Below are positions 4,848-15,323 of a stretch of 64,000 nt of DNA, piece after piece. The stretch spans positions 2,615,380-2,679,379 of the forward strand of contig NZ_CP088017.1 in assembly GCF_021049285.1 (NCBI RefSeq), in the 5' to 3' direction. A program made the position numbers and the translations under genes. Under the pieces are notes generated by a model, which saw only the letters and a list, made by a program, of their open reading frames with translations, did no database searches and was not told the origin of the DNA. This DNA comes from Ruania halotolerans (GTDB taxonomy: Bacteria > Actinomycetota > Actinomycetes > Actinomycetales > Beutenbergiaceae). Each line of letters begins with the position of its first letter. The first letter of the stretch is position 1.

Positions 4848-6228
4848 GCGCGCGTCCCGATCCGGGAGCGATCACGGACAGTGATCGGCGCATCGACCCG
4901 CGGCGCGCCGCGAGCGCCTCCTTCGCGCAGGGTTCATCGCGTGCGAACGCGAGCACAACGGCGAGCGCCCCGAGCGTCGTCACCAGGGCCGAACCACCCT
5001 TGGACAGCAGCGGCAAGGGCACGCCGATCACGGGTAGCACTCCGATCACCACACCGATGTTCACCAGCGCCTGGCCGAGGATCCAGCAGGCGATCGCTGC
5101 GGTGGTGATCTTCACGAACGGGTCCGGGTGCCGGGTGATGACCCGGCTGAAGCCGATTGCGAGGACCACGAACAGGGCAAGCACCAGGAGGCAACCGAGC
5201 AGGCCGAGTTCTTCGCCGATGATGGCGAAGATGAAGTCGTCCTCAGCGGCCGGCAACCACAGCCACTTCTCCCGCGAGGCGCCCAGGCCCACCCCGGAGA
5301 TACCACCCGTACCCAATCCCTGGATCGCACGTAAGGGCTGATCACTCAGCGATTCATGGCCGCCCATGTTGAGGAAGGACAGGATCCGGCTCGTGCGGTT
5401 GTCGGAGGAGACCACGAACGCGGCGACGGCGGCGAGCACGATGCTCCCGGCCACCACGAACTTCGAGATTGGCACCCCGGCCACCCACAGCGCGCCCGCC
5501 ACGAGGGCGATCATGATCATCGCCGTGCCTAGATCCTTGGAGTAGACCACGGTACCGAGGAAGATCGTGGCCACGACCACGGCTGGGAACAGCACGTGCG
5601 ACCAGTGCCGGAGCAACCGGCCCTTCGTCGCCAGGACGGCGCCGAGCCAGAGCGCCAGCCCGAACTTCCCGAACTCCGAGGGCTGGAACACCGCCCCGGG
5701 AGCGAGTTGCACCCAGGCGGAGTTTCCCCCCTTACCCACGGCCAGCGGGGTGAACAGCAGCAACTGCAGCCCGAGGGCGCCGAGCATCGCGGGCCACGCG
5801 AGCCGTCGGATCCAGCGCACTGGGATGCGCGTGATCGCGAAAGCCACAGGCAGCGCGACCAACGCGTACAGCGCCTGGTTCTGGAACCCGCTCGTGATGG
5901 AGTCGCCGTCACGCAACGAGGGGATGGAGGAAGCGGAGAGCACCATGATCAGCCCGAAGGCGAGCAGCAGCAGCGTGGCGCCACCGATCAGGTAGTAGCT
6001 GGTCACCGGAGACTGCCAGGCGGCGCTCTCGGCCCACGGGAGCGAGCGCTTGGTGGCCGGCTTCCTCGGGGAACGTGATCCTGTGCGCGCACTCGGACGG
6101 CGTGAGGTCGTCGGCTTCCTGACGGTCCGGGTCGCAGCGCTCGCAGTCACTGCGCTCGGAGTGGCTCGCGGCCGGCCCGAGGCGGTGCCGCCGGTGCGTG
6201 GGCGCCGTGGCGGCGCGGGCGCACTCAT
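4840..6228 (-). CDS. ftsW: Peptidoglycan polymerase FtsW (SEDS family)
   Basis: Septal SEDS glycosyltransferase that polymerises lipid II together with FtsI. 462 aa. A cytoplasmic tail of about 75 residues, rich in Arg, Pro, Ser and Thr, precedes about ten transmembrane segments starting at YYLIGGATLLLLAFGLIMVLS. The family motifs GAVFQPSEFGKFGLALWLG and the C-terminal GVPLPLLSKGGSALV are present. The start overlaps the murD stop by ATGA. The long tail could be a phosphorylation or partner-binding region; this is inference. Confidence 0.96.
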   Translation of the reverse strand: MSAPAPPRRPRTGGTASGRPRATPSAVTASAATRTVRKPTTSRRPSARTGSRSPRKPATKRSLPWAESAAWQSPVTSYYLIGGATLLLLAFGLIMVLSASSIPSLRDGDSITSGFQNQALYALVALPVAFAITRIPVRWIRRLAWPAMLGALGLQLLLFTPLAVGKGGNSAWVQLAPGAVFQPSEFGKFGLALWLGAVLATKGRLLRHWSHVLFPAVVVATIFLGTVVYSKDLGTAMIMIALVAGALWVAGVPISKFVVAGSIVLAAVAAFVVSSDNRTSRILSFLNMGGHESLSDQPLRAIQGLGTGGISGVGLGASREKWLWLPAAEDDFIFAIIGEELGLLGCLLVLALFVVLAIGFSRVITRHPDPFVKITTAAIACWILGQALVNIGVVIGVLPVIGVPLPLLSKGGSALVTTLGALAVVLAFARDEPCAKEALAARRGSMRRSLSVIAPGSGRARG

Positions 6229-7706
6229 GACTCCAGCTCCCGGACGGCGTCGGCAAACGCTTCACCGCGCGCCGCATAGGACCGGAACTGGTCCATGGAG
6301 GCGCATGCGGGTGCGAGCAGCACCACGTCGCCGGGCTGGGCGAATGCTCGCGCGGCGTCGACGGCGGTCCTCATGACCTCAGTGTCGCCACCGGGCACCA
6401 CATGGCGCGGGAGGCCGGGCGCGTGTCGCTCAAGTGCCTCGAGTACGGGGCGCTGGTCCACACCGATCACGACGACGGCACGCACCTTGTCGCGATGTGC
6501 TGCCACCAGATCATCCAGCCGGGCACCTTTGGCCAGACCGCCGGCGATCCAGATGGTCCGGCCGGCCTCCATCGCACTCAGCGCTGCCGCAGCCGCGTGC
6601 GCGTTGGTGGCCTTCGAATCGTCGATGTATCGCACACCGTCCAGGGTGGCGATCGTCTGCATCCGGTGCTCTCCCGGGGAGTAGGCACGCAGCCCGCTCG
6701 CCACGTCAGCGGAGTCGACCCCCGCGGCCCGAGCGAGGGCAGCAGCAGCCAGGGCGTTCGCCACGATATGCGGCGGCACGTCACCGTCGCTACCGAGGTG
6801 TTCCAGATCCGTCAGAGATCCCAGCTCTGCGGCGTGCGTCTGCCGGTTCGCCACGAATGCCCGGTCGGCGAGCACATCCTCGACCATGCCGAGTTCACCC
6901 ACGCTGGGGCTGCCGTGAGTGAATCCGACGGCCCGTGCTCCCTCGATGACGTCCGCCTCGGCCACCATCTCCCGGGTCCGCGGATCGGCCACGTTGTAGA
7001 TGCAGGCCACCTTGGTGCTGTGGTGCACGCGCTCCTTGGCGGCCACGTAGGCGTCCATCGAGCCGTGCCAGTCCAGGTGATCGGCGTCCACGTTCAGGCA
7101 GGCCGAGGCGACCGCGGAGACCGAGTGGGTGTAGTGCAGTTGAAAGCTGGACAGTTCTACCGCGAGCGCGTCGATACCCGGTCCGTCACCAGCCCGCGCG
7201 CCAAGCACCGTGGCGGCGATCGGGGTGCCGACGTTCCCCACGGCCGGAGCATTCCACCCGTGCGCGGTGAGCATCGCCGCCAGCATGCCCACCGTCGTCG
7301 TCTTGCCGTTCGTCCCGGTGAGCGTGAGCCAGCGTACGTGCGCCGGGCAGACCTGCCAGGCCAGCTCCACCTCACTCCAGATCGGCACGTTGCTTGCCGT
7401 GGCATAGGTGAGCAGTGGCGCCGCGGGGGACCACCCCGGCGAGGCGACCACCAGGCTGGGTGAGAATTCCCACGCACGCTCGGCGAGCGCCGTCGGATCT
7501 GAGTCAGTGAGCACTCGCACACCGGAGGGCAGCTCCGTTGCAGGCGGTAGGACGTCCTGCATGTCCCGGCTGTCGACGGCCGTCACCTGCGCTCCGAGTT
7601 CGGTGAGTGCCTCCACGGCCGAGCGACCGGATGCGCCGAGGCCGGCGACGAGGACGGCTCGCCCGCGCAGTTCGTCGATCCCCGCACCTGGCAACAGGTG
7701 TGTCAT
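6225..7706 (-). CDS. murD: UDP-MurNAc-L-alanine--D-glutamate ligase MurD
   Basis: Cytoplasmic Mur ligase adding D-Glu to UDP-MurNAc-L-Ala. 493 aa. It has an N-terminal Rossmann motif (GLGASGRSA, 22-30), the P-loop GTNGKTT at 131-137, and the C-terminal ligase domain. The stop overlaps ftsW by ATGA. The start codon overlaps the stop of an upstream two-unit micro-ORF by ATGA instead of following mraY directly, so ribosomes reaching murD may arrive from that micro-ORF. Confidence 0.96.
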   Translation of the reverse strand: MTHLLPGAGIDELRGRAVLVAGLGASGRSAVEALTELGAQVTAVDSRDMQDVLPPATELPSGVRVLTDSDPTALAERAWEFSPSLVVASPGWSPAAPLLTYATASNVPIWSEVELAWQVCPAHVRWLTLTGTNGKTTTVGMLAAMLTAHGWNAPAVGNVGTPIAATVLGARAGDGPGIDALAVELSSFQLHYTHSVSAVASACLNVDADHLDWHGSMDAYVAAKERVHHSTKVACIYNVADPRTREMVAEADVIEGARAVGFTHGSPSVGELGMVEDVLADRAFVANRQTHAAELGSLTDLEHLGSDGDVPPHIVANALAAAALARAAGVDSADVASGLRAYSPGEHRMQTIATLDGVRYIDDSKATNAHAAAAALSAMEAGRTIWIAGGLAKGARLDDLVAAHRDKVRAVVVIGVDQRPVLEALERHAPGLPRHVVPGGDTEVMRTAVDAARAFAQPGDVVLLAPACASMDQFRSYAARGEAFADAVRELES

Positions 7707-7885
7707 CGGGTGCCTGCCTGGTCTGAGGGCTGCGATGCCTCGCTGCGGTAGACCTCGTCCCTCGACGTCCCTGCGCGGGCGCTCCTCGCACTCATCCAGT
7801 ACCCACGGTGGTCTGAGCGCTGCGGCGCCTCGCTCCGGTACACCTCGTTCCTCGGCGGCCCTACGCGGGGGCTCCTCGCGCTCAT
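7703..7885 (-). CDS. 60-residue micro-ORF of two tandem 30-residue units, bridging mraY and murD
   Basis: Unrecognised small ORF. It starts at ATG 7885, overlapping the mraY stop (ATGA), and ends at 7703, overlapping the murD start (ATGA), with no internal stop. The DNA is two tandem 90-bp units (7885-7796 and 7795-7706), each beginning with ATG. The peptide units share the pattern M-S-A-R-S-x-R-x-G, then R-x-E-V-Y-R-S-E-A, then Q-x-S-D; unit 1 opens [21 protein letters not shown] third divergent unit lies between rsmH and ftsL. The peptide is strongly basic, with no membrane segment. It may be translated purely as a coupling leader, or the repeat may act as DNA/RNA. Whether the peptide is stable is unknown. 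Confidence 0.5.
7706..7885 (-). repeat. Two tandem 90-bp repeat units (mraY-murD junction)
   Basis: Direct repeat with an exact 90-bp period on the minus strand, at 7885-7796 and 7795-7706. The best conserved stretch is ATGAGnGCGAGGAGCnCCCG, followed by GAGGTnTACCGnAGCGAGGC further in. A related single unit of the same length is at 14299-14210. All three begin at the stop codon of a dcw gene and end at the start codon of the next one. Confidence 0.85.
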
Positions 7886-8964
7886 CCGGTAAACCACTCG
7901 GCGTAGAAGACGCCCAGCCCCAGACACGCGCAGAGGGCAGCGATGATCCAGAACCGGATCACGATCGTCACCTCACCCCACCCCATCAATTCGAAGTGGT
8001 GATGCAGTGGAGCCATCTTGAAAACGCGCCTGCCAGTGGCTTTGAAGAACCCGATCTGGATCACGTCGGAGAGGATGATCAGCACGAACAACCCACCGAT
8101 GATGGCTCCGAGGATTTCGGTGCGGGTGAGGATCGTCATCCCGGCCAGTGCTCCACCGAGGGCGAGCGCGCCGGTATCTCCCATGAAGATCTTCGCCGGG
8201 GAGGCGTTCCACCAGAGGAAGCCGAAACAGGCGCCCACGATGGCCGCGGCCACGATCGACAGGTCGCGGGGATCGCGCACCTCGTAACAACTGGGACCCG
8301 CGCTGGCCAGCAGCTGACAGCTCTGGTTCACCTGCCAGAACGTCACGAGCGTGTAGGCACCGAAGACGAACATCGAGGCTCCGGTGGCGAGCCCGTCCAG
8401 ACCATCGGTCAAGTTCACGGCATTCGACCACGCGGTGATGAGGAAGTTCGCCCAGATGACGAACAGGATCAGGCCGACGGTCGCGCCGGCGAATGCGAGG
8501 TCGAGGCCGACATCACGGGTGAAGGAGATCTCCATGCTGGCGGGTGTGCGGAACCGGGCGTTCGGGAACTGCAGCACCAGCACCGAGAACGCCACACCGA
8601 TCACACCCTGACCGACGATCTTCCAGGCCGGGCTCAGCCCGAGCGAGCGCTGCCTGCTGATCTTGATGAAGTCATCCAGGAACCCGACGACCCCGAGCCC
8701 GACCATGAGGAACAGCAGGAGCAGTCCGGAAGCACTCGGCATATTGCCGGTGACCATGTTGGCGAACACATACCCCACCAGAGTGGCCACGATGATGACC
8801 ACGCCACCCATCGTGGGGGTGCCACGTTTGGTGAAATGGGCCGTTGGACCGTCTTGGCGGATGAACTGGCCGTAGTTGCGGCGCACCAGGAACCGGATGA
8901 ACAGCGGCGTGCCCAGCAATGAGACGGTCAATGCCAGGGCCCCGGAGACGAGGATCGCGATCAC
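7882..8964 (-). CDS. mraY: Phospho-N-acetylmuramoyl-pentapeptide-transferase MraY
   Basis: Integral membrane enzyme that transfers phospho-MurNAc-pentapeptide to undecaprenyl phosphate, making lipid I. 360 aa with about ten transmembrane segments. The catalytic DD pair is in GFLDDFIK (97-98); [24 protein letters not shown] and the C-terminal PLHHHFEL histidine motif are all present. Start overlaps the murF stop (ATGA). Its stop lies inside the first 90-bp unit. Confidence 0.97.
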
Positions 8965-13802: not shown

Positions 13803-14210
13803 TCAGTTCTCGCTGACCAGTCCGTCACCCTCGCCCAGGATCGATTGATCCTCGAGCACCAGGTAACGCATGTCCTCGGCCGGTTCCATACCGATCCCCC
13901 GAGCGGCCTGCTCGAGTTGGATGGGAGAGGCGAGCCGGTCGGCCTCATGAGCGAGCGACTGCTGTGTCTCGGTGAGCTGGGCCAGTTCGATCCGCTGCTC
14001 GTGGATCTCGTACGAGGTGGCGGACATGACCGTATTCAGCAGCAGCACACCGAGAAGCGCGGCACCGAGGATGGTCAAGCAGCCGAAGATGAAGGGCACC
14101 CGGCTCCGGGCCGGCTGCGGTGCTCGAACGATCCTCAGGCCGCGCCGCCCATCCCGGGCGGGCCCGCGGGCGGGGGGTGCCTGGAAGGCGCGCAGCGGCA
14201 ACGCGCTCAT
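13803..14210 (-). CDS. ftsL: Cell division protein FtsL-like
   Basis: Small bitopic divisome protein. 135 aa: a basic cytoplasmic tail of about 38 residues, a transmembrane segment at about 40-63 (FIFGCLTILGAALLGVLLL), then a periplasmic-side coiled coil with QRIELAQLTETQQSLAHEADRL. FtsL is poorly conserved, so the call rests on size, topology and position between rsmH and ftsI. Start chosen at ATG 14210, with AGGGGAG seven nt upstream and an ATGA overlap with the preceding micro-ORF. The same frame is open far upstream through rsmH but that is a shadow. Confidence 0.88.
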   Translation of the reverse strand: MSALPLRAFQAPPARGPARDGRRGLRIVRAPQPARSRVPFIFGCLTILGAALLGVLLLNTVMSATSYEIHEQRIELAQLTETQQSLAHEADRLASPIQLEQAARGIGMEPAEDMRYLVLEDQSILGEGDGLVSEN

Positions 14211-14299
14211 CGCACGCTCCCCTGGTTTGACTGTTGCGGTCGCTCGCTCCGAGACGGCTCGCAGGTCGGCGTCCCTGCGCGGGGGCTCCTCATCCTCAT
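14207..14299 (-). CDS. 30-residue micro-ORF bridging rsmH and ftsL (single repeat unit)
   Basis: Unrecognised micro-ORF of 31 codons including the stop. ATG at 14299 overlaps the rsmH stop (ATGA) and its own TGA at 14209-14207 overlaps the ftsL start (ATGA). The peptide opens [20 protein letters not shown] and matches the units at 7885-7706: R-S-P-R-A-G, E, R-S-E and Q-x-S sit at identical positions and the unit length is again 30 residues. It also supplies the ribosome site for ftsL. Function unknown. Confidence 0.5.
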
Positions 14300-15273
14300 G
14301 CGGGGCTCCCTTCACGGAGACGTTCGGCCGCGCGAACCCGCACCGACGCCGATCGGGGATTGCGGGTGACCTCGTCCTCATCGGCACGTTCGGCACCACG
14401 GGTGAGCAGGCGCAGGGACGGTTCGTGTTCGGGCAAGGTGACCGGTAGCCCGACTGGGGCGCTCGAACGAGCCCCCGCAGCCAACGCCTGCTTGACCAGC
14501 CGGTCTTCGAGGGACTGGTAGGACTCCACGACGATCCGGCCCCCCACAGCGAGCGCATCAAGCGCCGCCGGCAACGCGCGAGCGAGCACGTCCAACTCGG
14601 CGTTGACGGCGATCCGCAACGCTTGGAATGTTCGCTTGGCCGGATTGCCACCGGTACGACGGGCAGCGTGCGGGATGTTCTCTCGCACCAGCTGCACCAG
14701 CTGACCGGAGCGGGTGATCGGCTCCTGGGCGCGAGCCCGGACGATCGCACCGGCGATCCGCGGCGCGAACTTCTCCTCGCCGTATTGGTACAGGATGCGC
14801 CGCAGATCCGCCTCCGACTCATGGGCGAGCAGGTCGGCGGCAGTCGGACCCGTGCTCTGGTCCATCCGCATGTCCAGCGGAGCGTCCTGAGCGTAGGAGA
14901 ACCCGCGTTCGGCTTCGTCGAGCTGCATCGACGAGACGCCAAGGTCGAACAGGATCCCCTGCACACGGCCTGGCGCGTGAGCTGACGTGCCATAGGTGGC
15001 GGCGACGGCGGCGATCTCGTCGTAGACGGCGTGGACGGCGCAGAACCGATCGCCGAACTCGGCGAGCCGCACCTGCGCAGCCGCAATGGCCGCAGGATCG
15101 CGATCGATACCGATCACGCGCAACTGCTCGAACCGACGCAACGCGGCCTCGGCGTGTCCGCCGAGGCCGAGGGTGGCGTCGATGAGTACCGCACCAGGGC
15201 TGTTCACCGCGGGCTCGAGCAAGTCGAGGCATCGCTGCGCCAGCACGGGGAGGTGCCGATCATGCGATGTCAT
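14296..15273 (-). CDS. rsmH: 16S rRNA (cytosine-1402-N4)-methyltransferase RsmH (MraW)
   Basis: SAM-dependent methyltransferase acting on the 30S P-site nucleotide C1402. 325 aa from ATG 15273; GTG 15276 directly before it is an alternative. HLPVL near the N-terminus, the SAM motif [16 protein letters not shown] at about 30-45, [13 protein letters not shown] and the C-terminal RSLEDRLVK-like [14 protein letters not shown] are family hallmarks. A 271-nt gap with GTGGAG boxes and a hairpin separates it from mraZ. Confidence 0.96.
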
Positions 15274-15323
15274 CACGCTCGTGCCTTCCTGGTTCTCGGG
15301 TTCTCATGTGCGGGTGTTCAGAG

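Follow-up and report, generated by a model that had tools for sequence, protein, structure and literature searches.

Two small open reading frames in the dcw cluster

The dcw cluster of the analyzed window (i.e., the whole 64-kb stretch of DNA) lies on the minus strand, and small open reading frames (ORFs) were found at two of its gene junctions: a 60-codon ORF composed of two units between mraY and murD, and a 30-codon ORF composed of one unit between rsmH and ftsL (Table 1). Both had been pointed out in an earlier sequence-only reading, and their presence, lengths, and unit structure were confirmed by translation. The ATGA overlap with the neighboring genes, also described there, holds at all four junctions of both ORFs. 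The statement that all units measure exactly 90 bp proved only approximate, as the start-to-start distance is 90 bp from unit 1 to unit 2, and 89 bp both from the last unit to murD and from the single unit to ftsL. The DNA sequences of the two mraY/murD units are 86% identical over 83 nt, at a 90-bp spacing. The ftsL gene is the 3' part of a longer open frame (13803-15086), and its identity in the seven congeneric genomes rests on DNA alignment from near its start (7/7). A search of Rfam with the region 7600-8000 of the window gave no match at E ≤ 1, and a known RNA family was therefore rejected.

Table 1. Positions of the two small ORFs, their units, and the flanking genes in the window.
Feature	Position	Strand	Remarks
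mraY/murD ORF	7885-7703	-	60 residues, two units
Unit 1, mraY/murD element	7796..7885	-	ATG (7885-7883) overlaps the mraY stop in ATGA
Unit 1, predicted hairpin	TGAGCGC (7884-7878) to GCGCTCA (7820-7814)	-	
Unit 2, mraY/murD element	7707..7795	-	In frame with unit 1; murD ATG (7706-7704) 89 bp on
mraY/murD ORF, stop TGA	7705-7703	-	Overlaps the murD start
mraY, upstream host gene	7882..8964	-	ORF; translation matches in 7/7 congeners; name from the earlier reading
murD, downstream host gene	6225..7706	-	ORF; translation matches in 7/7 congeners; name from the earlier reading
rsmH/ftsL ORF	14299-14207	-	30 residues, one unit
rsmH/ftsL single unit	14211..14299	-	Only in this one of eight Ruania genomes
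rsmH, upstream host gene	14296..15276	-	ORF; translation matches in 7/7 congeners; name from the earlier reading
ftsL, downstream host gene	13803..14210	-	ATG 14210-14208; name from the earlier reading

Dispersal of the repeat and its placement at gene junctions

With a single 92-bp unit as a query, 16 places were found in the 4.27-Mb genome at E ≤ 6.5e-7 (its own place included), the rsmH/ftsL copy being matched at E = 3.5e-7. The relatedness of the dispersed copies is far beyond chance. A 77-position sequence model, built from 17 units, gave 22 matches at E ≤ 0.01 in the same genome and from 2 to 26 matches in each of the eight Ruania genomes. Among the 59 genomes searched, 15 contained a match at E ≤ 0.01, 10 of them strong and 5 weak. 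The strong ones were all eight Ruania genomes (including G005, G006, and G007) and two of Isoptericola (G031 and G049), and the five weak matches, in other genera, were left out of the placement analysis. No strong match was found in the 16 other listed genomes of the window's own family (G008-G023).

The structure model R2 gave matches at E ≤ 1e-6 in five of 394 genomes of the class, and at the same threshold 16 of 396 genomes of the order were positive in the structure search, with eight hits from Ruania, seven from the genus to which G031 and G049 belong, and a weak one elsewhere. A pattern scan of named genomes yielded 41 stretches in Ruania, Isoptericola, Krasilnikoviella, Nocardioides, and one Nonomuraea, the last of which had no support from the profile. 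The distribution of the repeat is patchy. One genome of the class sample (G411) contains three weak matches (L229, L233, and L237), which cover model positions 14-59 with E from 7e-7 to 9e-7. A literature search covering titles and abstract beginnings, which included Ruania, Isoptericola, and elements resembling the mycobacterial interspersed repetitive units (MIRUs, a term that reportedly goes back to Supply et al. in 1997), found no report of this element.

It is worth mentioning that at two places of the window's own genome, L024 (C1:1438668-1438689) and L029 (C1:2375806-2375823), only the first ~18-22 bp of a unit are present, forming there the N-termini of genes for a permease-like and an UppS-like protein (judged by eye); they are possibly fossils or deletion remnants. 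Moreover, in a subfamily (L018, L019, L122, L133, and L145) the first 15 nt are followed, always at this position, by 12 inserted nt that preserve the frame.

Placement was counted in the genomes of Ruania (eight) and Isoptericola (two) for 97 arrays with a score of at least 26 bits. Of 112 arrays, 15 had been dropped beforehand for a best score below 26 bits, as had the locus L120, which overlaps L113. The sequence-only reading had proposed a search for further copies in the genome and its relatives; such copies were found, and 93 of the 97 arrays start with ATGA or GTGA (DTGA). In 78/97 arrays the TGA at the array start closes an upstream frame of at least 80 codons, compared with 1190 of 5420 control DTGA/TTGA sites on both strands of the same DNA, a rate which is high because antisense frames are open in G+C-rich DNA. 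The frame of the downstream gene was clear in 75 arrays (45 with a stop/start overlap, 20 in frame, and 10 in the third frame) and not clear in 22/97. When codon composition was used as a criterion, 86/97 arrays preceded or ran into a same-strand coding frame and 76/97 came after one, so that a same-strand coding neighbor was present on at least one side of 94 arrays and on neither side of three.

Array numbers vary widely within Ruania, with 20 in G004 but two in G001. Two or three units are present in 24 of the 97 arrays, and the 26 spacings between tandem neighbors are 87 (13 cases), 89 (7), 90 (4), 91 (1), and 96 bp (1), which corresponds to 18 in frame 0, seven in frame 2, and one in frame 1. 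From the last unit to the nearest DTGA the distance is mostly 89 or 87 bp (range 83-101, with 78-104 searched), and for 7/97 arrays no DTGA occurs within 78-104 bp of the last unit.

According to Pfam matches, the host genes in this genome include trpC/trpB, glgE, relA/spoT, clpP, and argC/argJ; further ones are a response regulator/histidine kinase pair, ABC permeases, and trkA. They have no pathway in common, and because they are unrelated, an operon leader or attenuator of one pathway was rejected. At L002, L006, L007, and L008, the element ORF is joined in frame to proteins of the TrpB, ABC permease, ClpP, and ArgJ types, so the annotated N-termini of these proteins may include element sequence. 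At another site, the same junction is occupied in two families (L113 and L133 of Ruania, and L175 of Isoptericola), following in L133 a gene for an FAD-binding oxidoreductase, which reflects either independent insertion or operon transfer.

The orthologous junctions of the congeners were inspected for sites without the element. At rsmH/ftsL, all seven congeners have a bare ATGA that contains the rsmH stop, and the DNA from near the ftsL start aligns. At mraY/murD, a bare DTGA is present in three of the seven (ATGA in G001 and G004, GTGA in G005), the element is present in G002, G003, and G006, and in G007 the mraY stop has no overlap. Another six loci of this genome were traced in the congeners that gave a match. 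The clpP site is a bare ATGA in all three genomes read (G003, G004, and G006). At trpC/trpB, G004 and G007 have a bare junction, and G002, G003, and G006 have diverged copies; in G001 and G005, with the junction itself unread, there is no room for an element. The L006 locus is a bare ATGA in 4/4 genomes read, the L004 locus is a bare ATGA or GTGA in 5/7 (the other two unread), and the L018 and L022 loci are without the element in 4/4 and 7/7 congeners, respectively. In some congeners (e.g., G004) the target start of the L022 locus is a GTGA placed 13 bases past the upstream stop, which indicates that insertion targets the start codon and does not necessarily need the overlap.

When loci were defined by matching both flanks, the 97 arrays fell into 66 loci, of which 43 hold the element in a single genome of the ten and 23 in at least two. 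The number of units varies between species in 7 of these 23 orthologous groups.

Subsequently, the bases before the DTGA of the element were compared with those before the downstream DTGA, for which the DTGA closest to a distance of 89 bp past the last unit was chosen. The comparison covered 87 of the 97 arrays, and then 59 with one array per orthologous locus. In the latter set, identity at positions -4, -3, -2, and -1 was 0.47, 0.56, 0.68, and 0.80, compared with 0.32, 0.28, 0.42, and 0.41 for shuffled loci (z from 3.0 to 6.4; with shuffles within genomes, from 2.8 to 5.4). All four flank bases matched at 16/59 loci, compared with 1.6 after shuffling. The D base of DTGA agreed in 0.83 of the cases (0.64 shuffled), the base after DTGA in 0.85 (0.71 shuffled), and position +7 in 0.54 (0.41 shuffled).

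A unit-like fragment occurs at the downstream start in 17 of the 87 arrays. Upon removal of such starts and of L171 (n = 44), the left side retained z values from 2.4 to 4.7, with 4/4 matches at 11/44 loci vs. 1.6 shuffled, and z amounted to 2.3 for the D base, 2.6 for the base after DTGA, and 1.6 for position +7. The flanks can be read as a duplication of about 9 bp (from -4 to +4) containing the start codon, for which the support is statistical, across loci, and whose right-hand end is less certain than the left. At L171 (G007:C251) the duplication of the left flank extends over 26 bases, far longer than at the other loci. Taken together, the dispersed copies, their species-specific presence or absence at orthologous junctions, and the target-site duplication lend support to the proposal, made in the sequence-only reading, of a mobile short repeat adapted to gene junctions.

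Predicted hairpin and the open frame

Each unit is predicted to form a single long hairpin of 22 pairs, reaching from TGAGCGC to GCGCTCA. In 122 aligned units (111 distinct), 91.7% of the paired cells hold a pair, compared with 83.3% in shuffles, which treat related units as independent, and with 31-48% when partners were slid. Double changes occur in 197 cells vs. 62 in shuffled data. The number of pairs with any double change shows a modest excess (13 vs. 10.4, reached by 18/500 shuffles). At one position of the stem, 55 distinct units have A-U and 51 have G-C. Pairing is lowest in the outermost helix (86.6%). A further set of 28 distinct units, partly taken from close relatives of those already used, had 533 of 578 cells paired vs. 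87% shuffled. G.U wobbles are retained (212 cells, 239 in shuffled data) and A.C cells are depleted (23 vs. 85), which indicates that the mRNA-sense strand is the structured one. On this strand the loop reads GAGGNACGA in 90 of the 111 distinct units.

Orthologous copies provide information on the fate of the hairpin at a given locus. Among the 68 changed pairs in 25 comparisons of orthologues at a distance below 0.16, 38 were broken. This share slightly exceeds that for copies at different loci at a comparable distance (44 to 51%) and suggests that the hairpin decays once inserted. On the other hand, 23 of 61 single changes kept the pair, compared with 11% expected from a rough spectrum of unpaired columns, which suggests in-place maintenance of the hairpin.

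As concerns the open frame, none of the 111 distinct units contains an in-frame premature stop, compared with 25.7±4.4 or 16.5±3.9 in simulations, which count related units as independent. A match of 4 nt or more to a Shine-Dalgarno-like sequence, located at most 20 nt before the next start, is present in 81% of 90 arrays vs. 50% of shuffled tails, and one before the element's own start in 60% vs. 32%. No codon periodicity was found, the entropies of the three codon positions being 0.63, 0.57, and 0.60. Similarly, changes between orthologous copies (41 pairs, some non-independent) fall on positions 1, 2, and 3 in 138, 115, and 123 cases. The peptide seems unimportant, and the open ORF probably keeps ribosomes flowing through the insertion. 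Of the possibilities left by the sequence-only reading (i.e., peptide, RNA structure, or coupling), the data thus favor a sense-strand structure combined with an open frame and speak against the peptide.

Proposed mechanism and comparison with known repeats

We consider it likely that the repeat is a mobile element, small and non-autonomous, which targets start codons and has a MIRU-like lifestyle, with translation passing through it. Such an element would consist of a body of about 80 bp and a target-site duplication of about 9 bp, and its targets would be DTGA start codons, mostly those at which an upstream TGA stop overlaps the next start. Since the duplication contains DTGA, the upstream stop and the downstream start would both be kept and the element would gain a start codon of its own; the open frame of the body would then end in the next DTGA or continue as an N-terminal extension. 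Owing to this open frame and the Shine-Dalgarno-like tail, ribosomes could translate across the insertion. Propagation would require the sense-strand hairpin and its GAGGNACGA loop. We infer actual transposition, this role of the hairpin, and translational coupling from the anatomy of the sequences. The earlier idea of a portable translational bridge gains indirect support from the missing in-frame stops, the under-used third frame, and the Shine-Dalgarno-like tails, and the 10/75 arrays with the downstream gene in the third frame count against the main explanation.

Essential or central operons (mraY/murD, rsmH/ftsL, clpP, trpC/trpB, and argC/argJ) have apparently been entered with little harm, for which the anatomy of the insertion suggests a reason: the start codon is copied with the duplicated site, and the body leaves ribosomes an open frame. 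As for a mobilizing enzyme, Y1 transposases (PF01797) were found in none of the 11 genomes searched and were rejected for this role, and inspection by eye revealed no terminal inverted repeats of known transposases.

A structured RNA mobile element, in which the GAGGNACGA hairpin joins in insertion via an RNA or single-stranded intermediate, is a rather unlikely form of this mobility. If it were true, the restriction of insertions to the sense orientation at start codons would stem from the mechanism itself rather than from selection alone, and the targets would be found through translation-initiation sites. It is improbable that the repeat is a recruited cis-regulatory RNA, whose hairpin and loop would be bound in trans and regulate its own operon, a role compatible with mobility. 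The covarying stem, the conserved loop on the mRNA-sense strand, the 23 loci common to two or more genomes, and the pair-keeping single changes between orthologues would agree with such a function. However, the host genes have no common pathway, most loci (43 of 66) hold the element in a single one of the ten genomes, more than half of the changed pairs are broken between close orthologues (38/68), and a mobility factor would give the same loop conservation.

Two other explanations dispense with a mobile element. A gene-start segment may have been locally duplicated and then, without a transposition enzyme, have been copied to similar ATGAGCGC starts through gene conversion or illegitimate recombination. 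Tandem copies are indeed common, a unit-like fragment lies at 17/87 downstream starts, and the search for Y1 transposases gave no mobilizing enzyme. Nevertheless, a shared covarying core at 66 loci in ten genomes of two families, precise element-free sites, and short, locus-specific flank duplications fit discrete insertion better, and this origin is very improbable. Least credible is a conserved micro-protein family, whose peptide would act at or near the products of the neighboring genes. The copies do share recognizable residues, and 111/111 distinct units have an open frame. However, the three codon positions are equally variable, frameshifted copies persist (L125, L163, and L176 keep an open ORF and give other peptides), in-frame fusions to ClpP-, TrpB-, and ArgJ-type proteins occur, and the two window peptides have no match in Pfam or NCBIfam at E ≤ 1. 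The micro-protein was therefore rejected.

The mobile element favored here shares features with several known kinds of repeats. Miniature inverted-repeat transposable elements (MITEs) are short and non-autonomous and generate a target-site duplication; the Ruania-type element is likewise short and non-autonomous, with a duplication supported statistically across loci, but it has one long interior hairpin and a DTGA target, and no terminal inverted repeats matching a partner transposase were recognized by eye. REP/BIME palindromes are dispersed non-autonomous hairpins, as are the Ruania repeats, and are moved by Y1 (RAYT) transposases, whereas no Y1 transposase was found in the 11 genomes searched, and the Ruania-type element has an open frame at junctions and a flank duplication of about 9 bp. 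Rickettsia palindromic elements are also palindromic, mobile, and keep reading frames open, but are located inside genes and not, as in Ruania, at start codons between genes.

The closest known kind are the MIRUs, which serve for typing and for whose movement we know of no resolved mode. A hairpin-bearing counterpart of MIRUs in soil actinobacteria, whose genera are not known as notable pathogens, would offer a tractable system for finding the mobilizing enzyme, given its element-free sites in close relatives and its flank duplication. In excerpts of two papers, MIRUs appear as short interspersed units with a variable tandem number, inserted at start codons with -4 coupling, whose small ORFs overlap flanking genes of the same orientation (PMC12548453, PMC4473831). 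In excerpts of others, the region between senX3 and regX3 carries 77-bp MIRU units and has reported promoter activity (PMC4213456), and a class I MIRU forms the 77-nt 5' UTR of a gene that is leaderless in M. marinum (PMC4128351).

The Ruania-type element resembles MIRUs in the presence of several short units per genome (22 at E ≤ 0.01 here) and in tandem copy-number variation (24/97 arrays, and 7/23 groups between species). It also has a small same-sense ORF overlapping its neighbors (45 arrays with overlap, 20 in frame, and 10 neither; compare the MIRU ORFs in the excerpted part of PMC4473831), and its element-free orthologous sites place it at start codons, as the excerpted part of PMC12548453 reports for MIRUs. 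It differs in its host range (Ruania, Isoptericola, Krasilnikoviella, and Nocardioides) and in that its unit is a full-length, covarying hairpin of 22 pairs, whereas MIRUs are described without dyad symmetries in the excerpted part of PMC4473831. Because of this mismatch, the repeat may be said to work like a MIRU but is not classified as one, and the two kinds are set apart by description and not by sequence alignment.
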